A stretch of 38,261 nucleotides of DNA, taken from the IMG/VR virus record IMGVR_UViG_3300010885_040704, positions 1 to 38,261 of that record; one strand, given 5' to 3'. Source of the stretch: a virus. The position numbers were made by a program, and so were the translations under genes. Below the pieces are notes generated by a model, which worked only from the letters and a program-made list of their open reading frames with translations, searched no databases and was not told the DNA's origin. Below are positions 3,126-37,187 of this stretch, piece after piece (within the stretch, counting starts at the first letter, position 1; each line of letters starts with the position of its first letter).

Positions 3126-3973
3126 TGCTCGACACTTACGCGGCGATGATGCGGGAACACGGGTACATCCCGATGAACCACAGCACGCCCAACTTCTTCC
3201 CGGTCGACGCCGGGCCGATCTACGACGACCGCGGGAAGAAGATCCCCGGTCACCAGCGCGTTTTCCGGGGAGACAGCGGCGACACGCTGGGCATCCACAC
3301 CGAGAAGTACACGATGGTCCCCTACGAGAAGCACTTCTCGATCTTCGAAGACGCCATCCTGGCCTCCAAGCTCGACAAGCAGGGCATGCAGGTCGCCACC
3401 GATATGTCGGACAACGGCGCTCGCATCTTTCGCCAGTACCTTTTTCCAAGCGAAACGTCGGTAGTGCTGGACAGCAAGGGTCAAGAGAACAGGCTGGCGC
3501 TGCGGATCATCAGCTTCGACAGCTACGATGGCAGTTCCGCCTTCATAGCCAAGGCTGGCTTCTTCAACTTCATCTGCGCCAACGAAAGCATTTTCGGCAA
3601 CAGCCTGATCAACATCCGCTTTCGCCACACCGGAGACGTGCAAGCGCGGGTCGAGGAAGCGGCCGGCAAGATGATCGTTGCCAGCGAACGCTTCCGCGAA
3701 GAGGCGACTCGCATGGAGCGCTGGCCGAACATCACGGTCGACGCCAACCAGCTCGCCGTCCTGCTTGAGCACCTGCCGCAGAGCAACAATACGCTCATCA
3801 ACCAGTTCGTGTCGGACTTTGCCCGCAACGGCAACGACGACCTCTGGGACGTAAACCAGTTCCTGACGTCGTGGGCGACCCACGGCATCCCGCCCAAGAT
3901 CAAGGCCGATCGCCAGAAGCGTGTCACCGATCTGGTCGAGTCTCCGGCTTGGAAGCGTCTGGAGGTCGCATGA
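3125..3973 (+). CDS. DUF932 family protein (282 aa)
   Basis: The ATG at 3125 overlaps the upstream TGA; a longer in-frame extension to 3074 lies inside the previous gene and is rejected. The region after residue 40 (RVFRGDSGDTLGIHTEKYTMVPYEKHFSIFEDAI) is the characteristic N-terminal block of DUF932. That family is found mainly in phages and plasmids, often beside recombination or partition genes, and its biochemical role is undetermined. The C-terminal part is helical. The gene is directly followed by a small membrane protein and the ParB-like gene. The DUF932 + ParB pairing gives this segment a plasmid-like flavour. Confidence 0.85.
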   Translation: MLDTYAAMMREHGYIPMNHSTPNFFPVDAGPIYDDRGKKIPGHQRVFRGDSGDTLGIHTEKYTMVPYEKHFSIFEDAILASKLDKQGMQVATDMSDNGARIFRQYLFPSETSVVLDSKGQENRLALRIISFDSYDGSSAFIAKAGFFNFICANESIFGNSLINIRFRHTGDVQARVEEAAGKMIVASERFREEATRMERWPNITVDANQLAVLLEHLPQSNNTLINQFVSDFARNGNDDLWDVNQFLTSWATHGIPPKIKADRQKRVTDLVESPAWKRLEVA

Positions 3974-8575: not shown

Positions 8576-8930
8576 AGACGATCTGTTCGGGCTCACAAAG
8601 GGTCCGTCCGGCGAACAGCTCAAAAAAGAGGCTTTTCAGAAGCTAAGCGGCAAGCACGGGAGGTGGATTCACTGGGCGCGGGAGCAGGTCTACCAGCTCC
8701 TCGTCAAGCGGACGGCCGACCACGAAGCCTTTCCTCTCACTGCGCCTCTGCCCACGGTCACCAGCGACGATATCTGGGACCGCTGGCCGCCGCCGGCCGA
8801 CGCTCACCCTTCCGTGATGGGGCCGGTCTTCAGCGACCTGCGCTTCCTGCGGGAGGGCTACCAGAAGTCCAAGCGACCCTCGGCTCACAGCCGGGTGATC
8901 TCCGTCTACGTACTCTCAAGAAGGAACTGA
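8568..8930 (+). CDS. Unknown protein in the recombination operon, start overlapped by parS (120 aa)
   Basis: GTG at 8568 is preferred because the AAAAGGGGTG ribosome binding site is then correctly spaced. GTG 8559 (giving MFHVKQ first) would sit directly on that site. The product has a short N-terminal LFGL motif, a helical WIHWAREQVYQLLVKR segment and a basic C-terminus with SVYVLSRRN. I recognise no family. Proteins in this position between exonuclease and annealing genes are often nuclease-like or resolvase-like accessories, but no catalytic motif is visible here. The gene starts inside a parS palindrome, so ParB binding could block its transcription. Confidence 0.7.
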   Translation: MKQDDLFGLTKGPSGEQLKKEAFQKLSGKHGRWIHWAREQVYQLLVKRTADHEAFPLTAPLPTVTSDDIWDRWPPPADAHPSVMGPVFSDLRFLREGYQKSKRPSAHSRVISVYVLSRRN

Positions 8931-28510: not shown

Positions 28511-28950
28511 CGCCTCCGTTGCGGGGGCGCGATCAGCTCAATGGCGCCCAGTGAAAGAAGTTCCTCGTAAAGACTGTCAGCTCTTTGCCGAAACGAACGC
28601 GGCTTCAGACCCAAGAGGGACCGCGTAAAGGTAACACAAGTTGTCCATCCGAAGGCGTGCCAGAGAGAAGCCTTTGGCGGAGTGGGCGACCCTTCAAACA
28701 AAAGCATGGCGCCGCAGCGAGCAACAATTGCGTGCAAGCGAGCGGCTTCCCTGGCCGTTACCAGCGTAGCCGAGTACCCCATGAAAGCCCATTCGACTAC
28801 CATGAAAGTGTTTCCGTCTTCACTGGGCTGCAAAAGAAAGCAGTGTTGCCACGGCGGTTTGGGCTTGTGAAAGACAGTGGTGATCCAATGCAGGCGGGCC
28901 GGCACAAAAACAACCTGCCAATGACCCCGCCAGGGTTGCCACGCTTTCAT
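28507..28950 (-). CDS. Unknown aromatic-rich late protein (147 aa)
   Basis: The ATG at 28950 overlaps the terminase stop in ATGA, which I prefer to the GTG at 28962 further inside that gene. The protein is unusually rich in Trp and His (WQPWRGHWQV, LHWITTVFHKPKPPWQH), with a compact alpha/beta core (TFMVVEWAFMG, AREAARLHAIVARCGAMLLF). Genes of this type lie between the large terminase and portal in several podoviruses. Function unknown to me. The aromatic richness suggests a tightly packed fold or ligand site. Confidence 0.7.
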   Translation of the reverse strand: MKAWQPWRGHWQVVFVPARLHWITTVFHKPKPPWQHCFLLQPSEDGNTFMVVEWAFMGYSATLVTAREAARLHAIVARCGAMLLFEGSPTPPKASLWHAFGWTTCVTFTRSLLGLKPRSFRQRADSLYEELLSLGAIELIAPPQRRR

Positions 28951-30533
28951 GTGTTCTGCCACCGGCGAGCGCCCATCCGCGTCGACTGACGCTGGAACGG
29001 GTTTCCTATCCTTGGCGCCGTCACCGAACGGTTTTCTCGCGCCATCTTCAGCATCGGCTTCCAGCCGCCCGCGCCCACGACTCCGTACTGCAAGGCGTCA
29101 TGAATGTGACTGTGCCGGTTCTTGTAGGGCTTGGTCTCATAACTCTGTCCGTGGCTCCCACCGACTTGCCGAAACTGGTAGCCACCCTCGAATCCGGCGA
29201 TCAGGCCCTTGCAGTGCGGACTGATCAGAAAGCCGGGGCCGTGCACCGTCATCTTCGTCAGCGCCGCTGCCACCGCTTCGATCCGGATCAGCGGATCGTT
29301 AGTCGGCGCCGCCGTGAACTGCTTGAAGCCCGAGGCCCGCATGATCTGCAGAGGAGTCTCGTCGCGGGTCTGGGCCATGTCGTCGCCCGCAGGGTCGCCC
29401 CACATCGAATAGGTAAAATCGGTCCACCCCATTTTCGTGATCTCGCGGGACAGGCGGATCGCCAGCGTCTGGGTCGATACGCCGGCAAGAACCAGCTCAT
29501 GGAACACCACGAACCTTCCGTCGATCTCCTGCAGGAAAGCTACCGCGGGCGTCCGACCGAAGTCCGCCCCAAGAATAACAGAGTGGCTTGGCAAGGGAGC
29601 CAGTCGTTGGCTGGCGACGTGAACGTCACGACTGAACTCGGGGTAAACCGGGCGGCCGCTCACGATCTCGTCGTATCGGTTCAGCACGTAGATGTTGATC
29701 CACGTGCGGCTCTTGCCCGGCAGAAGGTCGAGATAATACTTGTCGGGCAGCTTCTGGTTCGCCCGGTCCGGGTTCATCGCATAACTCAGCACCCGGCCAT
29801 CCTCGCCCAGGATTTCGATCATCGCTGCCGGCTGCGTGTAGAACTCCCAGCTGCCAGGCTTAACCAGCAGCTTGGTTTCGTCTTCCGTCATCCACTCGGG
29901 CGCTGGCACTTCGCCGGCCATGATCGGCCACCAGTGGTCCTTCGGAGGACTGTTCGTGTCCATGATCACGCCAGACCACGTTGGCCCGCCCTGCGCCGGA
30001 GACGGATACCTGTTCACGCGGGCCGTCACGCCGTCGAGGATTTCTTTTGGCAGTTCTCGCGCTTCGTTGATCCACGCCCCCGTCAAATCCAGAGACAGGA
30101 GCTTGGCAACGTCCGAAGGGCGATCCAGCGCGAGGAAGATCACCTCACAGTCGACATAACTGCCGTCGGGCATCTTGTATGTCAGGTGATGCGTGAACGG
30201 CGCGCTTCGCAAGAAGGGACCCAGCGTCTCGGGAACCCATTCCAGCCACGTTTTTACCGTCGTTAGCTTCAGCTCAGGAAACGTGTTGCGGACGATCGCC
30301 CACCGGCTTCGCCGCACCCGTTCCCCATTCTCTTCAAACGGTTCCTGCTGCTGCGCTCGTCGCATTACCTCATGCACGCACAGCACGGACTTGCCGGACC
30401 CGAACGGCCCCCGGATGCCCCGCACAAAGGCATCGCTTCGCATGAACTTCACCGCCACAGGATCAGGCGGCACGAACGACACAGGGTTCTTTGGCCCCTT
30501 CACCATTGCCTGGGCTGCGGCTTTGCGAGCCAT
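28947..30533 (-). CDS. terL: Terminase large subunit (528 aa)
   Basis: ATPase-nuclease motor that packages DNA through the portal. N-terminal ATPase: Walker A GPFGSGKS at residues 42-49 and a Walker B-type strand DLTGAWINEA at 149-158 (Asn-Glu as in the terminase group). C-terminal RNase H-fold nuclease: GADFGRTP with Asp324, GDPAGDD with Asp380, and HSHIHDALQY with Asp479, the three acidic metal ligands. Length is normal. ATG overlaps the previous stop. The subtype most like this is the podoviral, BPP-1/P22-like headful group, but the packaging mode cannot be read from sequence. Confidence 0.93.
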   Translation of the reverse strand: MARKAAAQAMVKGPKNPVSFVPPDPVAVKFMRSDAFVRGIRGPFGSGKSVLCVHEVMRRAQQQEPFEENGERVRRSRWAIVRNTFPELKLTTVKTWLEWVPETLGPFLRSAPFTHHLTYKMPDGSYVDCEVIFLALDRPSDVAKLLSLDLTGAWINEARELPKEILDGVTARVNRYPSPAQGGPTWSGVIMDTNSPPKDHWWPIMAGEVPAPEWMTEDETKLLVKPGSWEFYTQPAAMIEILGEDGRVLSYAMNPDRANQKLPDKYYLDLLPGKSRTWINIYVLNRYDEIVSGRPVYPEFSRDVHVASQRLAPLPSHSVILGADFGRTPAVAFLQEIDGRFVVFHELVLAGVSTQTLAIRLSREITKMGWTDFTYSMWGDPAGDDMAQTRDETPLQIMRASGFKQFTAAPTNDPLIRIEAVAAALTKMTVHGPGFLISPHCKGLIAGFEGGYQFRQVGGSHGQSYETKPYKNRHSHIHDALQYGVVGAGGWKPMLKMARENRSVTAPRIGNPFQRQSTRMGARRWQNT

Positions 30534-32225: not shown

Positions 32226-32658
32226 CACCGACCTCCCCCGGGCACCAGGCTTTGCAACGCAAGCGCAGCTTTACAGGCAAAAGCATAAAAAAAAGACGAC
32301 CATTACGCCTCTTTTTTTACTCAGTTCCTCATACAGAAAAAATCCAAGGAGAGGCAGCAGGTCTTTGCGCGGACAAGGATAAAACTGGCGTGCTGGTCCC
32401 TTCACCTAACGCGGCCGGCCTGTTTTTAAGGCCAGTACCCTGTAAGCCCCGCTGGTGAATGGGTCCCATACCGAGCCCGAGAGAGGGGGATGCCCCCTCT
32501 CCGCCCGCAGGCGGGCTCCTCTCCCCCTGAGGAGGGGGATGCCCCCTCCTCGCCGCAAGCTGACGCTCGCTGCTCACCTCCCCCGGCTGCGCTTTAGAGA
32601 GATGCTCCCGCGGGGACCAGCAGAGCCACACCCTGCTGATCGGTAGCACAGTCCGTGG
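32226..32658. other. 433-bp spacer with GC hairpins and an A/T-rich inverted repeat
   Basis: No convincing gene; a 106-codon minus-strand frame through it is low-complexity. It holds perfect GC hairpins at 32481-32501 (GAGAGGGGG, loop ATG), 32503-32516 (GCCCGC, loop AG) and 32529-32551 (GAGGAGGGGG, loop ATG). A CAGCAG/CTGCTG repeat lies near 32615-32640. Near 32287-32317 an inverted repeat with A8 on one side and T7 on the other could be a weak bidirectional terminator. It separates the 166-aa gene from the lysis cassette. Confidence 0.6.
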
Positions 32659-32660
32659 CT
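32651..32660 (-). repeat. Leader motif core AGCCACGGAC, copy D (minus)
   Basis: The minus strand reads AGCCACGGACTG here, the core of the motif found at 8522-8536, 34421-34435 and 36674-36688. This copy straddles the stop codon of the 166-aa gene. Confidence 0.35.
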
Positions 32661-33159
32661 ACTCGCTCTCCGGTAGAGAGAACGTGAACGCATGGTGCTC
32701 CCCAGCAGCACGCATCGCGGTTGTATTCCCAACGCCAGCTCTATCGAGCAGCTCCACAGAAACCCTGTATTTCAAGGCTTCGTCGGCTGTTTTGTCGCGC
32801 AATTCCGCCAAGGTTGCGACCGATTTTCCGGCCTCAAGACCCAACGTACTCAAGGTGACAGCAGCCATAAGGCGCTGAACCTTCGGCATGAGGAGTTGCC
32901 TCGAGGCCCACTGGTCGTCGTTGCCGAGAGTGCGGCTGAGAGACTTGAGCGTCGAGCCTGTAGAGAGGCGGAGTGTCACCAGCGCGATCTGGGCGTCGGT
33001 GTATTGATCGTCTGTGCGCTTGGCTTCGCGAGCGGTTGCCCGAGAGATTGTATCGACGTCTGGAATGGCTTTGGGGGCGGCTTTGCGGACAACGTTTGCG
33101 ATGGCGGAGGAATCGCTTGGGGCAACGTTGGCTCTGAGCTTGTCGGTCCGGAGAGACAT
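32659..33159 (-). CDS. HTH/small-terminase-like protein, first gene of the late arc (166 aa)
   Basis: Starts at the ATG at 33159, which has no Shine-Dalgarno sequence. The N-terminal 50 residues are Ala/Arg-rich. TDAQIALVTLRLSTGSTLKSLSRTLGNDDQWASRQLLMPKV (about 54-94) looks like an HTH. The C-terminal helices with DEALKYRVSVELLDRAGVG resemble small-terminase endings. It could be the small terminase or a regulator of the late arc. It is the first gene after the divergent spacer and is separated from the lysis and packaging genes by 433 bp, which is unusual for a small terminase. Confidence 0.65.
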   Translation of the reverse strand: MSLRTDKLRANVAPSDSSAIANVVRKAAPKAIPDVDTISRATAREAKRTDDQYTDAQIALVTLRLSTGSTLKSLSRTLGNDDQWASRQLLMPKVQRLMAAVTLSTLGLEAGKSVATLAELRDKTADEALKYRVSVELLDRAGVGNTTAMRAAGEHHAFTFSLPESE

Positions 33160-33292
33160 AAAGAAATAGAAAGCATTTCTGCTTATCCACCGTCAAGGCA
33201 CTTGTTCGTAACTAATAGCCCCGCTTGATAAATACACACCTGATAGGGAACGTCTGTGAACCAATTCCGTGGGGTATTAGAGTACCGTGTCA

Positions 33293-33309
33293 GGGGGGGG
33301 GGGAGGGGG
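33293..33309 (+). repeat. Poly-G run (G11-A-G5)
   Basis: Eleven G, one A, then five G. An unusual homopolymer for this genome, at the boundary between the A/T-richer promoter-like part and the hairpin-rich part of the spacer. It may form a quadruplex or be a site of length variation or sequencing error. Confidence 0.7.
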
Positions 33310-33877
33310 TGGCTCCGCTCGCTTGTTCCGGCCTGGCGGCCGGCGCTCGCTCTCGCTGTGTGCATGGGGCATGTGTGATCGCCGGCGCAAGCGCCGCCGA
33401 CCCCTTGAAAGGAAAGGAGCGGGCTCCGCCCGCACTTGCTCAGCAAGATGGCTCGCTGGTCGCTCGCGGGCTCGCCAAGCTCGCCTCATCTCATGAACGC
33501 GCTGGTGCGCGAGCTACCATGCAGTGCCGGGGGGTTCTGTGCTGGCGCTGTGCGGGTGCACGCCCCCGGCAGAGTCTCTGATTTTTTCTCTCTCTTGACG
33601 CCCCAGCGCACGCCCCCAGAAGAGGGGGCGTGCTTGCCACCCCCGCTCGCCCTGTCAAGGCGGAGGAGGAGAAACATTCAGTCGCGGATTACCGCAACAG
33701 AATGTCTCACCTCCCCCGCCTCCTCCGTATGAACTCCGGCCCGCCAAGAGGCGGGTGACAGGACTCGGCAGCCGTTCGGTGCTCGCCCTCAGGCATAGGT
33801 CGCTTCGCGACTTGAGTGGGCTCGACCCGCATAGATGCCCGTGTGCCCACTCAACCCCCGGCCCAGCCGGGGGCTAC

Positions 33878-33937
33878 GGAAGCCGGACGGGCGCAAGCGC
33901 CCGGCGGTGGCCAAGAGGCCCCCGCGTCCCGGCTTCC
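33878..33937 (+). other. Predicted three-way-junction structure
   Basis: An outer 9-bp stem (33878-33886 with 33929-33937, GGAAGCCGG/CCGGCTTCC) encloses two hairpins. One is a perfect 7-bp CGGGCGC stem with loop AA at 33888-33903. The other is a GGCC stem with loop AAGA at 33909-33920. Three nested perfect repeats in 60 bases suggest a folded RNA leader or a DNA cruciform. It lies upstream of the first early gene. Confidence 0.5.
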
Positions 33938-33961
33938 TGATGCCTTCGATATGGCTCGCAC

Positions 33962-34011
33962 GCTCTCTCGGGTGGACCGGGGTCTGCGTCAAGCGAGAGC
34001 TGACGCAGACC
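33962..34011 (+). promoter_or_regulatory. Leader hairpin with possible pseudoknot before the first early gene
   Basis: A perfect 10-bp stem (33981-33990 with 34002-34011, GGTCTGCGTC/GACGCAGACC) has an 11-nt loop containing GAGAGC (33995-34000). This is complementary to GCTCTC at 33962-33967. The loop could form a pseudoknot or an alternative fold. The element ends about 20 nt before the GAGGAGAC ribosome binding site of the gene at 34045. Confidence 0.45.
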
Positions 34012-34044
34012 TGTGGAGGTCTGATCCATACAGAGGAGACAGTC

Positions 34045-34317
34045 ATGGAAGTGTTGAACAAAGCCCACCTGAAGCGGATGCCGCATGATGCCGTGTACAT
34101 CGGCCGCGGCAGCAAGTGGGGCAACCCGTTCATCATCGGCAAAGACGGTGACCGCGATGAAGTCGTCGCGAAGTACAAGCGCTACCTCTGGACCAACAAG
34201 CAGCTGCTGGCCCAGATCCGCGAACTGCTGAACAGGGACCTCGTCTGCCACTGTGCACCGCAGCGCTGCCACGGGCATGTGCTTCTCGATGCGCTCGAGT
34301 GGGACATGCGTCGATGA
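34045..34317 (+). CDS. DUF4326 domain protein (90 aa)
   Basis: ATG at 34045 with AGAGGAGAC upstream. The sequence DAVYIGRGSKWGNPFIIGKDGDRDEVVAKYKRYL and later LVCHCAPQRCHGHVLLD is the DUF4326 signature (Tyr-Ile-Gly-Arg-Gly-x-x-Trp-Gly-Asn-Pro and Cys-x-Cys-x-x-x-x-Cys-His-Gly-x-x-Leu). The conserved Cys/His residues suggest metal binding. The function is not established; it is common in phages. It is the first gene of the early arc. Confidence 0.88.
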   Translation: MEVLNKAHLKRMPHDAVYIGRGSKWGNPFIIGKDGDRDEVVAKYKRYLWTNKQLLAQIRELLNRDLVCHCAPQRCHGHVLLDALEWDMRR

Positions 34318-34323
34318 CCGAGA

Positions 34324-34381
34324 GAGAGGGGGCTCCGCCCCCTCTCAAACTCTCCCCCGGCAGAGGCGCGTCCGCCTCTGC
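34324..34381 (+). repeat. Pair of perfect GC hairpins after the DUF4326 gene
   Basis: 34324-34346 is a 10-bp stem GAGAGGGGGC with loop TCC. 34360-34381 is a 9-bp stem GCAGAGGCG with loop CGTC. Neither is followed by a T run, so they are more likely members of the hairpin family spread through the spacers than ordinary terminators. Confidence 0.65.
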
Positions 34382-34420
34382 ACTCGGGCCTTGTCAAACC
34401 AGACCGTCGGTAGCACGGGC

Positions 34421-34435
34421 GGAAGCCACGGACCG
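34421..34435 (+). repeat. Leader motif GGAAGCCACGGACCG, copy B
   Basis: Exact match to 8522-8536. Flanked by GTCGGT (34406-34411) and ACCGAC (34432-34437), which can pair around it. It lies 40 nt before the ATG at 34475. Confidence 0.5.
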
Positions 34436-34474
34436 ACTTCTCAATTCGCATCTTTCTTTTCATTGGAGACGACC

Positions 34475-34771
34475 ATGTTGACCATCATCCTCTCGGCTAT
34501 CGGAACCTTCCTCGCCTTCGCTTCGATTGAGCTGGCGAAGGCCATCCTCATGTACTTCGCCGTCCGCATCGTGGTGGAGGCCGCGATCCGCCTGAAGGAC
34601 CGCGTCCTCTACACCGCCATGCGGGCAGTGGCCGAACCGAAGGCGACCCTGATGTCGATCGGGAACTTCCTGATCTACCTCACCTTTGCAGCAGCCACGC
34701 TGGCGACCAGCGTCGTCTACTGGCTGGTGTTCATGGCGGCCCGCGCACGGAACGTGGCTGCCGCAGCGTAA
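34475..34771 (+). CDS. Membrane protein with two hydrophobic segments (98 aa)
   Basis: ATG at 34475 with TTGGAGACGACC upstream. Hydrophobic segments near residues 2-30 (LTIILSAIGTFLAFASIELAKAILMYFAV) and 60-88 (SIGNFLIYLTFAAATLATSVVYWLVFMAA) flank a basic stretch (RLKDRVLYTAMR). It is probably a two-span inner-membrane protein. No family is recognised. The early position suggests action on the host envelope, but that is only a guess. Confidence 0.65.
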   Translation: MLTIILSAIGTFLAFASIELAKAILMYFAVRIVVEAAIRLKDRVLYTAMRAVAEPKATLMSIGNFLIYLTFAAATLATSVVYWLVFMAARARNVAAAA

Positions 34772-34804
34772 GCGTACCCACCCACAGTGATTGAGGAGAC
34801 AATC

Positions 34805-36148
34805 ATGCCGAGACTTGCAGAAGAGACCATCGAACACGACGAAGACCAGCTCACGCAGATCGAGCAGGAGGCGGCAGCTTTCGGAACGACCGACGACATC
34901 GACCTCGTGCCGGAGCCGACCCTCACGGTCGTCGTGCCCACGCCGCCGAAGAATCGGCGCACGAAGAAGAAGCTCCCGGTCCCGGCACCGAAGCCGGTTG
35001 CGGTGAGCATCGCGGCCTATGCCGACCACCTCTTCACGCGGCACCAGTACCTGCGGCAGCTCCGCATTAAGGTGGCGCTGCTTCGCGAGAAGCAGGCGCA
35101 GGAAGAGGCGGTGGTGGCGACCACCAGCCACCCCGACAAGGTCACCGGGAGGGTCCCGGCACCCCGGCTCAGGTTCCGCCGTGCGCCAGGTCACGCCTAC
35201 CCGATGGACGCAGCCACCTTCGCTCGGTGGCAGGCGAAGTACGGCAAGCGGGCTCACGACAAAATGGTCGAGGAAGCGCAGACCGCGATCGACACCGGAC
35301 ACACCCGCTACTTCCCCGACGGGGGCAGCGACTTCATGACTCGGCGCACCGTGCCCGCCATCGAGAAGGCGGTGCGGGACCTGCTGAAGAAAGAGGGCAT
35401 TGAACTCTCGTCCTACTACGATCCCGAAAAGCGCCAGTGGTTCCGGCTCTGGGAACCGACCGACCTGCCTCCCATCCCGCTGCGGAACGTCAGCCGCGAG
35501 AGGGCGCTGGCCGACGGATACGTCTCCGAGTCGGACAGGGCGCTGGCCGAGGGAACCTACGTCAGGAACACCACGTTCCAGATGTTCAGGACCATCGAGG
35601 GCGACGACTGGGACGACCTCGGCCCGGACGAACAGCACCGGATCATGAAGGCCAAGTACGACGCACATCGCGCCATACTGCAGACCACCTTCTGGTCCGA
35701 CGACAATGAGCTTGCCCGCCTGAAGTACATCGACGGGTATCTGAACACCTACGAGTGGAAGATCCACTCCCTCGTGGCGGCCGACAGGGCAGCGCGTTTC
35801 GAGATGAAGAACCTCGTGCGTGACAACGACGACACGGAAATCCCACTTCAGCTCATCGAGCAGAAGCAGGCCCGTATCAACGGCCTGCGGAACCAGCTCC
35901 GCGACTGTCAGGCGAACTTCGACGTCTGCATGAAGCTCCGCGATGAGCTTGTCTCGGCCACCTCGATCCAGTGGGGCGCATACCGCTCGATCGAACAGAA
36001 AGCCACGGACAAGGCAGCGCGTGAGCGTAGGAACAAGGCCGTCTCCCACCATCTGGCGGGGCTTTCGCGGCCCGAGTACGAACTCTGGCTCAAGGATCAG
36101 GACTGGCGCGTGCACCGGGACGGTGTGGCCGCCAGCGACGACGAGTAA
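34805..36148 (+). CDS. Large early protein of unknown function (447 aa)
   Basis: ATG at 34805 follows GAGGAGACAATC, nearly the same leader as the gene at 34045; a GTG at 34787 in frame is rejected. The first 60 residues are acidic, then proline/lysine-rich (TPPKNRRTKKKLPVPAPK) and probably disordered. The rest is helical and highly charged, with HLFTRHQYLRQLRIKVALLREK, a TTFWSDDNELARLKYIDGYL block and a C-terminal coiled-coil-like part (LIEQKQARINGLRNQLRDCQ). No enzyme motif is recognised. It is the largest unassigned early gene and is followed by a clear terminator. Confidence 0.7.
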   Translation: MPRLAEETIEHDEDQLTQIEQEAAAFGTTDDIDLVPEPTLTVVVPTPPKNRRTKKKLPVPAPKPVAVSIAAYADHLFTRHQYLRQLRIKVALLREKQAQEEAVVATTSHPDKVTGRVPAPRLRFRRAPGHAYPMDAATFARWQAKYGKRAHDKMVEEAQTAIDTGHTRYFPDGGSDFMTRRTVPAIEKAVRDLLKKEGIELSSYYDPEKRQWFRLWEPTDLPPIPLRNVSRERALADGYVSESDRALAEGTYVRNTTFQMFRTIEGDDWDDLGPDEQHRIMKAKYDAHRAILQTTFWSDDNELARLKYIDGYLNTYEWKIHSLVAADRAARFEMKNLVRDNDDTEIPLQLIEQKQARINGLRNQLRDCQANFDVCMKLRDELVSATSIQWGAYRSIEQKATDKAARERRNKAVSHHLAGLSRPEYELWLKDQDWRVHRDGVAASDDE

Positions 36149-36157
36149 CGAACGCTT

Positions 36158-36204
36158 CCCCCGGACGCAGGCCGCTTCTCGCCTCCGTCCGGGGGATTTC
36201 TTTT
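36158..36204 (+). terminator. Intrinsic terminator after the 447-aa gene
   Basis: A perfect 10-bp stem CCCCCGGACG (36158-36167) with CGTCCGGGGG (36186-36195) is followed by ATTTCTTTT. The 18-nt loop can fold further (AGGC/GCCT). It lies nine bases after the stop codon and reads on the plus strand. Confidence 0.8.
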
Positions 36205-36511
36205 GATCGAACGGGTCGGCGGCGCTCGCTGGTCGCTCGCACGTGGCGCTACGACGACACAGTGAAGCCCAGCGCCAGGTCTCGACACCGGGCATGAAGG
36301 GGGCACGCCCCCTCGCTGCGCTCACCCCCGCGCCCGCAAGCGGTCGCCCGGCCGAAGACGGCCGGCGGAGGGCTGGCCGCCCTCCGGACCTCCCGCGTGA
36401 CGCCATGACCCTGAATACGATTAGCCTCAGTGGGCGGCATCGCCCGGGTTGATTAGCCTTGGTTCGCGACTTTCTTCGCAGGGCAGACACCGGAGAAAAA
36501 AAGGATCGGTC
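36205..36511 (+). other. Spacer with further GC hairpins, no gene seen
   Basis: About 300 bp between the terminator and the small membrane gene. Perfect hairpins: 36298-36313 (AGGGGGC, loop AC), 36348-36365 (CCGGCCG, loop AAGA) and 36367-36385 (GGAGGGC, loop TGGCC). GATTAGCCT occurs twice, near 36419 and 36450. Promoter signals for the SSB region must lie here or just downstream, but none is clear. Open frames in it are low-complexity. Confidence 0.55.
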
Positions 36512-36664
36512 ATGTTTCTTCTTGTTTTTTTATGGGCCGCGGCCGCGATCGGCTATGCCTACGGAGGCATCGACGAAGCCTTCACGTGGTTCGTTGGCTC
36601 TGTTTTTCTGCTGGTAGGTGGCTTGTGGCTGCTGGATGAACTCAGTCAGCGGATGACCACCTGA
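36512..36664 (+). CDS. Small two-span membrane protein (50 aa)
   Basis: ATG at 36512 with AAAAAGGATC upstream. Two hydrophobic stretches (FLLVFLWAAAAIGYAYGG and FVGSVFLLVGGLWLLDEL) flank a short acidic turn, followed by a polar end. Length and composition fit a tiny inner-membrane protein. No family is recognised. The longer frame to 36449 adds residues without membrane or protein character and has no ribosome binding site. Confidence 0.55.
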   Translation: MFLLVFLWAAAAIGYAYGGIDEAFTWFVGSVFLLVGGLWLLDELSQRMTT

Positions 36665-36764: not shown

Positions 36765-37187
36765 ATGTACGCGCAGATCACCATCGTTGGACGGCTCGGC
36801 AAGGACCCCGAGATCAAGAAGCTGAACAACGGCGCGACCGTTGCCCGGTTCTCGGCGGCTGTCGACAAGGGCTACAAGAACAAGGACGGCACCAAGCCGG
36901 ACGCCGAGTGGTTCAACATCGACGCCTATCAGGCGAAGGACACCGGCATCGTCACCAACCTGATCCAGCCGTACCTGAAGAAGGGCCAGCTGGTCTTCAT
37001 CGCCGGCGAGCCCACGATCGAGAAGTACACCAAGGACGGCGTGGAGCAGCGGGTCTTCAAGATCAAGCTGGGTCCGCAGTCGACGCTGAAGATGCTCGGC
37101 GGCACGGCCAAGCCCGGCGAGAGCGGCGGCAGCGCCCCGGCCTTGACCGGCGGAGCCGCGCCCGGAGACGACGACATCCCCTGGTAG
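36765..37187 (+). CDS. ssb: Single-stranded DNA-binding protein (140 aa)
   Basis: OB-fold SSB. The opening YAQITIVGRLGKDPEIK has the first strand and turn of bacterial SSBs, followed by GATVARFSAAV, the aromatic DNA-contact region (EWFNIDAYQAKD) and KGQLVFIAGEPTIEKY. A Gly/Ala/Pro-rich linker leads to an acidic tip ending DDDIPW, the place where SSB partners bind. It should coat ssDNA during phage replication and cooperate with the exonuclease/annealing proteins. ATG has TTAGGAGAG upstream. Confidence 0.93.
   Translation: MYAQITIVGRLGKDPEIKKLNNGATVARFSAAVDKGYKNKDGTKPDAEWFNIDAYQAKDTGIVTNLIQPYLKKGQLVFIAGEPTIEKYTKDGVEQRVFKIKLGPQSTLKMLGGTAKPGESGGSAPALTGGAAPGDDDIPW

Follow-up and report, generated by a model that had tools for sequence, protein, structure and literature searches.

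Why should the spacers of one short region of a phage genome be crowded with perfect G/C hairpins? The question is raised by the 38,261-base IMG/VR virus record IMGVR_UViG_3300010885_040704, analysed here over its whole length (positions 1 to 38,261; hereafter the window), in which such hairpins are concentrated in the spacers between 32.2 and 36.5 kb. These spacers surround the point at which the genes part, the late ones running leftward and the early ones rightward; we infer these two labels from gene content. The first-pass annotation had described the hairpins as a small family with a few recurring loops and mostly no T runs, resembling repetitive extragenic palindromic (REP) or packaging/processing elements. 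The analysis showed that the hairpin set is real and strongly non-random, its parts being of ordinary kinds and its density unusual. We give about even weight to the view that the hairpins act as RNA-level elements in untranslated parts of phage transcripts.

Hairpins were counted if the stem was perfect and had 6 or more G/C pairs, and dinucleotide shuffles were used as control. The four spacers concerned (32229-32658, 33160-34045, 34318-34475 and 36149-36512; 1.84 kb), spanning 32229-36511, contained 15 such hairpins against 0.85 expected, a number not reached in any of 500 shuffles. Taken singly, the spacers gave 3, 7, 2 and 3 hairpins for expectations of 0.11, 0.38, 0.03 and 0.32. No enrichment was detected in the mostly coding left arm (4 hairpins, 6.8 expected), and the remaining 3.3 kb of window spacers gave 1 against 0.44. 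Since each of the four spacers is enriched and the others are not, the equal density in shuffled sequence that would have counted against the first-pass annotation is not seen, and the hairpins are indeed confined to non-coding DNA at one boundary. A systematic inverted-repeat scan of the window also recovered the hairpins listed there.

The same count was made for 15 other viral contigs with a GC content of at least 0.55, which were picked by their terminase large subunit (TerL) or SSB, hairpins playing no part in the choice. They contained 24 spacer hairpins in all against 15.3 expected, and no stretch of 1 kb had over 4; the corresponding figures for the window are 16 hairpins, 1.3 expected and 8 in 1 kb. 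Among phages of similar GC, the window is thus an outlier in hairpin density. The possibility that such a density is normal for GC-rich phages is ruled out by these contigs.

Seven of the eight hairpins named in the first-pass annotation are perfect stems of 6-10 bp, namely those with the loops ATG (32481, 32529), TCC (33419, 34324), AA (33383, 33888) and AAGA (36348). The eighth, at 33909, has only the 4-bp stem GGCC-AAGA-GGCC, and a better AAGA hairpin, of 6 bp, is found at 33740. A loop of two nucleotides is impossible in RNA, and the actual RNA loop of the AA hairpins is CAAG. The T content of the 8 bases following the stem was determined on both strands for 19 stem-loops of the window. 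A clear tail (7 of 8 T) was found at 36157-36196, a full terminator, and a weak one (4 of 8) on the minus strand at 33419; even a weak tail was absent from the other 17, in agreement with the earlier remark that few have T runs. G/C stem-loops stand directly 3' of a gene at 34324-34346 and 36157-36196 (Table 1), while those of the divergent spacer are not located 3' of any gene.

The strongest structure is a long hairpin at 33658-33721, which had been overlooked. It is 64 nt long, and when folding was scanned along the whole window no other peak was as strong. Its folding energy on the minus (late) strand was -53.5 kcal/mol (z -11.0; 0 of 200 shuffles) with four G.U pairs, against -38.5 on the plus strand with zero G.U pairs and more mismatches. 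From its predicted fold, it is a candidate for an imperfect RNase III-type stem of ~20-30 bp. The hairpin belongs to a segment of 445 nt, 33600-34044, for which folding z scores of -10.0 (minus) and -7.8 (plus) were obtained; three other long spacers of the window gave values from +0.7 to -1.3. No Rfam family matched the segment at its gathering score, the best sub-threshold result being whalefall-1 (20.9 bits against 37), and no homologue of the segment was found outside the window. The divergent spacer also carries a long G tract (~10 G, A, 5 G) at 33294-33310.

Relatives were sought by means of TerL, TerS, SSB, the 447-aa gene and motif scans, and a single usable one was obtained, in the form of three nearly identical fragments: L009 together with L005 and L008, which are 99.96% identical to it. 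L009 is syntenic with the window (TerS 45%, SSB 58% and 447-aa gene 28% identical). Its matching spacers, which were set by hand, contained 6 hairpins against 0.41 expected (0 of 1000 shuffles), located after TerS, after the homologue of the 447-aa gene and in the divergent spacer. The stems and loops are unrelated to those of the window (for example GGCGGGC-TTG, CCCTCCC-AAA and GAGCGCCT-GTA). As in the window, the divergent spacer of L009 folded better on the late strand (z -6.6) than on the other (z -4.1).

Folded elements were also found in more distant TerL relatives. In Pelagibacter phage Hodr (OQ414635.1; L185:1585-1785) the divergent spacer before the leftward genes contains an imperfect hairpin of ~180 nt with a z score of about -6.9 on both strands. 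In L012, L013, L019 and, partly, L011, a single long hairpin of ~250 nt lies between early genes, ~2.1-2.3 kb upstream of TerL. This element, which has a z score of -7.8 in L013, carries a conserved GCGGAGGCTCCGC hairpin, and in the three sequences compared 5 of the 31 pairs of its core are changed on both sides; it is a candidate for a new phage structured RNA. The elements of Hodr, L011-L013 and L019 gave no match in Rfam, and no alignable counterpart of them was seen in the window. Together they suggest that early spacers may commonly be folded in this clade. Two further long hairpins were noted in L011, at 3236-3299 and 8640-8735; of the latter, only the late strand gives a good fold (z -5.4, with 7 G.U pairs, vs -1.2, with 1).

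The pattern AGGGGGCNNNGCCCCCT was scanned in IMG/VR, and the following figures refer to the first 120 stretches among the matches listed. The hairpin was located in a spacer in 102 of the 120, with loops of all kinds, mostly A/T. Of the 103 distinct cases, 16 were in coding sequence and 47 at most 30 nt from a gene 3' end; a further 5 had only a 5' end nearby, and 35 had neither. Gene 3' ends were therefore close by in 47 of the 87 distinct spacer cases. For gene-end hairpins, a T tail (4 or more T among the 8 bases that follow the stem) was present in 35 of 40 at a GC content below 0.45, in 7 of 10 at 0.45-0.55 and in 2 of 8 above 0.55, numbers that are small and were obtained with a simple gene caller of our own. 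Because they lie mostly in spacers, near gene 3' ends, and are T-tailed in AT-rich contigs, hairpins of this class are in general largely terminators; in GC-rich phages the T tail is often absent. In nine contigs (L035, L048, L051, L057, L065, L074, L087, L116 and L117) a further run of C begins no more than a few bases after a GGGGGC-NNN-GCCCCC hairpin (e.g. GGGGGCTTTGCCCCCTGGACCCCC), the two forming a composite motif that recurs.

The best reading of the window comprises one ordinary terminator, 3'-end hairpins that lack a U tract, and, where early and late genes part, a structured or RNase III-type leader, functions that we infer. Hairpins placed just 3' of genes (34324-34381 after DUF4326; 32481-32551 after the TerS-like gene) would set or protect mRNA 3' ends, acting singly or in clusters and, like many such hairpins in GC-rich phages, lacking a U tract. 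The divergent transcripts may have, in the chain of hairpins at 33600-34044 and chiefly in 33658-33721, a structured leader or a processing site of the RNase III type; the late strand is probably the one that is read. A role in RNA processing, one of those put forward in the first-pass annotation, is possible and is the one we favour. No hairpin sequence is shared, we propose, because selection acts on folding. RNA-seq is reported to show hairpin clusters that lack a poly-U trail at the ends of bacterial operons (PMC8355165).

Several points weigh against this reading. Few G.U pairs underlie the strand bias, which is mixed among sub-segments, 33725-34044 and L009 4495-4660 showing no clear bias; the late-strand assignment is therefore tentative. 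Perfect stems are symmetric, so that most of the hairpins do not separate a function in RNA from one in DNA. Matching spacers are available from only one independent relative, and promoter prediction found none. Moreover, hairpins without a U tract may not terminate alone, and the claim that they do is disputed for mycobacteria.

Could the hairpins instead act in the DNA, as a replication origin or single-strand initiation site near ssb, or as a pac/cos packaging region by TerS? The cluster does have the TerS-like gene on one side and the SSB-containing early operon on the other, a perfect stem folds as well on one strand as on the other, and the early-region spacers of relatives also contain long inverted repeats. 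However, hairpins are also found after genes outside the divergent spacer (34324, 36157), one of them is a plain terminator, the long hairpin has a G.U bias indicative of RNA, no iterated binding sequence was seen and the composition profile has no clear origin-like switch; we consider such a function unlikely. It is rather unlikely, too, that the hairpins are a neutral by-product of unconstrained GC-rich non-coding DNA whose palindromes were perfected by template switching. The lack of conservation of stems and loops between relatives, the mild recurrence of loops and the strand symmetry of most stems would agree with it. The other spacers of the same genome are nevertheless without hairpins, the phages of similar GC show little excess, and L009 has hairpins at matching positions; being confined and recurring at matching places, the hairpins are less likely to have arisen by neutral palindrome growth. 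The segment 33600-34044 might, alternatively, be a single large non-coding RNA that is structured and broadly of the kind of GOLLD/ROOL, with the shorter hairpins as terminators. Its folding z score over 445 nt, predicted three-way junction and continuous chain of helices speak for this, as do the ~250-nt covarying hairpin and the ~180-nt hairpin in early-region spacers of related phages; with no Rfam match, no homologue outside the window and no alignment to the elements of the relatives, we regard it as quite unlikely.

Copies of one dispersed REP-like or mobile palindrome are the least probable explanation, and one largely refuted. Identical loop pairs were more frequent than by chance (4 vs 0.78, p=0.011; 3 vs 0.34, p=0.009, for loops of 3 or more), and recurrence of the loop classes described earlier is thus modestly above expectation (p about 0.01). 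The effect is weak: the ATG pair reflects a duplicated 17-mer, GAGGGGGATGCCCCCTC, at 32483 and 32532, and the classes are not kept in L009, whose loops differ. A second exact 17-nt direct repeat, GCTCGCTGGTCGCTCGC, occurs at 33451-33467 and 36224-36240. While these duplications could be read as traces of an element, sharing among the hairpins was in the repeat search essentially limited to the palindromic stems, which vary freely, with no common consensus beyond the palindrome. The many dispersed copies typical of REP were not found, hairpins occurring only in 32.2-36.5 kb of the virus record, and the 19-mer AGAGGGGGATGCCCCCTCT was found in genome contigs of unrelated phyla, as for convergent or chance matches. 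In L009 hairpins are again present, and at comparable places, but their stems and loops are others, which speaks against a REP-like family. The repeat GCTCGCTGGTCGCTCGC is also present in 22 IMG/VR stretches, mostly in spacers, and L154, L163, L165 and L167 have two copies 41-50 bp apart.

A bolder form of the RNA-level reading may be conceived, to which we give little credence. In it, the divergent spacer of a podovirus-like clade would encode a fast-evolving, strongly folded untranslated RNA of ~445 nt whose position and foldedness, though not its sequence, are kept; it would act at the early/late switch, with the short hairpins as its U-less terminators or processing sites.

The window contains tail, connector, exonuclease and ParB-like genes. 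The closest annotated phages by TerL are Pelagibacter phage Hodr (46%) and Methylophilales phage MEP301 (38%). Endolysin and Rz-like genes follow TerL in gene order, before the TerS-like gene. The latter has no match in Pfam or PHROG, and it was not called by a composition-based gene caller. No gene was called in the divergent spacer, and nine small open reading frames of the spacer had no PHROG match. Comparison of spacer DNA with phages and plasmids gave short chance matches only, there is no tRNA near the structured segment, and scans of genomes with TerS and with the 19-nt hairpin identified no host.

Table 1. Hairpins, folded segments and genes of the window, with the ~250-nt element of relatives (energies in kcal/mol)
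Feature	Position	Strand	Remarks
TerL	28947-30533	minus	
A-run/T-run hairpin, terminator-like	32287..32317	minus	between TerS-like and Rz-like genes; 12 pairs, 3 GC
GAGAGGGGG-ATG-CCCCCTCTC hairpin	32481..32501		3' side of TerS-like gene (minus strand); -19.1 with flanks
GCCCGC-AG-GCGGGC hairpin	32503..32516		
GAGGAGGGGG-ATG-CCCCCTCCTC hairpin	32529..32551		-21.7
TerS-like gene	32659..33159	minus	so named for its place near TerL and 45% identity to syntenic L009 gene
CGGCGC-AA-GCGCCG hairpin	33383..33396		RNA loop CAAG
GCGGGC-TCC-GCCCGC hairpin	33419..33433		minus-strand T-rich tail TCCTTTCC
Exceptionally structured part of divergent spacer	33600..34044	minus	
GCACGCCCCC-AGAAGA-GGGGGCGTGC hairpin	33608..33633		-24.2
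Long hairpin	33658..33721	minus	two 30-nt arms
CCCGCC-AAGA-GGCGGG hairpin	33740..33755		
TTGAGTGGGC...GCCCACTCAA hairpin	33812..33854		10-bp arms; from predicted structure and sequence
CCCCCGGC-CCA-GCCGGGGG hairpin	33855..33873		
Three-way junction, GGAAGCCGG/CCGGCTTCC	33878..33937	both	predicted; around CGGGCGC-AA-GCGCCCG and GGCC-AAGA-GGCC hairpins
GGTCTGCGTCA/TGACGCAGACC hairpin	33981..34011		plus-strand GAGA loop; upstream of DUF4326 start
DUF4326 protein	34045..34317	plus	first rightward (early) gene; E=1.1e-25
GAGAGGGGGC-TCC-GCCCCCTCTC hairpin	34324..34346	plus	7 nt after DUF4326 stop; no T tail
GCAGAGGCG-CGTC-CGCCTCTGC hairpin	34360..34381	plus	second of pair after DUF4326
98-aa gene			between DUF4326 and 447-aa gene in order
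447-aa gene	34805-36148		
Canonical intrinsic terminator	36157..36196	plus	9 nt after 447-aa gene end; tail TTTCTTTT
AGGGGGC-AC-GCCCCCT hairpin	36298..36313		
CCGGCCG-AAGA-CGGCCGG hairpin	36348..36365		
CGGAGGGC-TGGCC-GCCCTCCG hairpin	36366..36386		abuts hairpin 36348..36365
SSB	36765-37187		
~250-nt hairpin element	L013:2057-2306; L012:1314-1563; L019:2333-2582; L011:7587-7677		

If the hairpins are true 3' ends and processing sites, this lineage shows GC-rich phages ending and maturing their transcripts without U tracts, and such ends escape standard terminator finders. The hairpin-dense spacer, far denser than those of phages of similar GC, offers a compact test case. Two concrete candidates for phage untranslated RNAs not described before are the long hairpin of the late strand and the relatives' covarying element.

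Actinobacteriophages carry start-associated and extended start-associated sequences (SAS/ESAS), conserved short inverted repeats with one consensus (e.g. GATCAACCNNGGTTGATC) at a fixed distance from start codons (PMC7302621). The window resembles them in having repeated intergenic inverted repeats in a phage, but has neither a consensus nor a fixed distance from start codons. Like the large ornate phage RNAs GOLLD and ROOL (PMC12286853), it has a long untranslated segment predicted to be highly structured; the segment differs in lacking an Rfam match and a nearby tRNA. Bacterial REP/BIME (bacterial interspersed mosaic element) palindromes are likewise intergenic and G/C-based, whereas the window hairpins are few, belong to one region and form no common sequence family. 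Phage T4 has stable hairpins between cistrons, those with C(UUCG)G among them, which are untranslated and have differing stems and recurring loops. The same holds for the hairpins of the window, although the loops are others and the UUCG tetraloop class is absent. The early mRNA of phage T7 has RNase III processing hairpins, which 33658-33721 resembles in shape by its 30-nt arms, few internal mismatches and location in an untranslated region. Many of the window hairpins lie in a divergent leader and not after a gene, unlike intrinsic terminators and the U-less clusters at operon ends (PMC8355165); the others match these in being GC hairpins within tens of nucleotides of stop codons, single or clustered, one of them with a full T tail.

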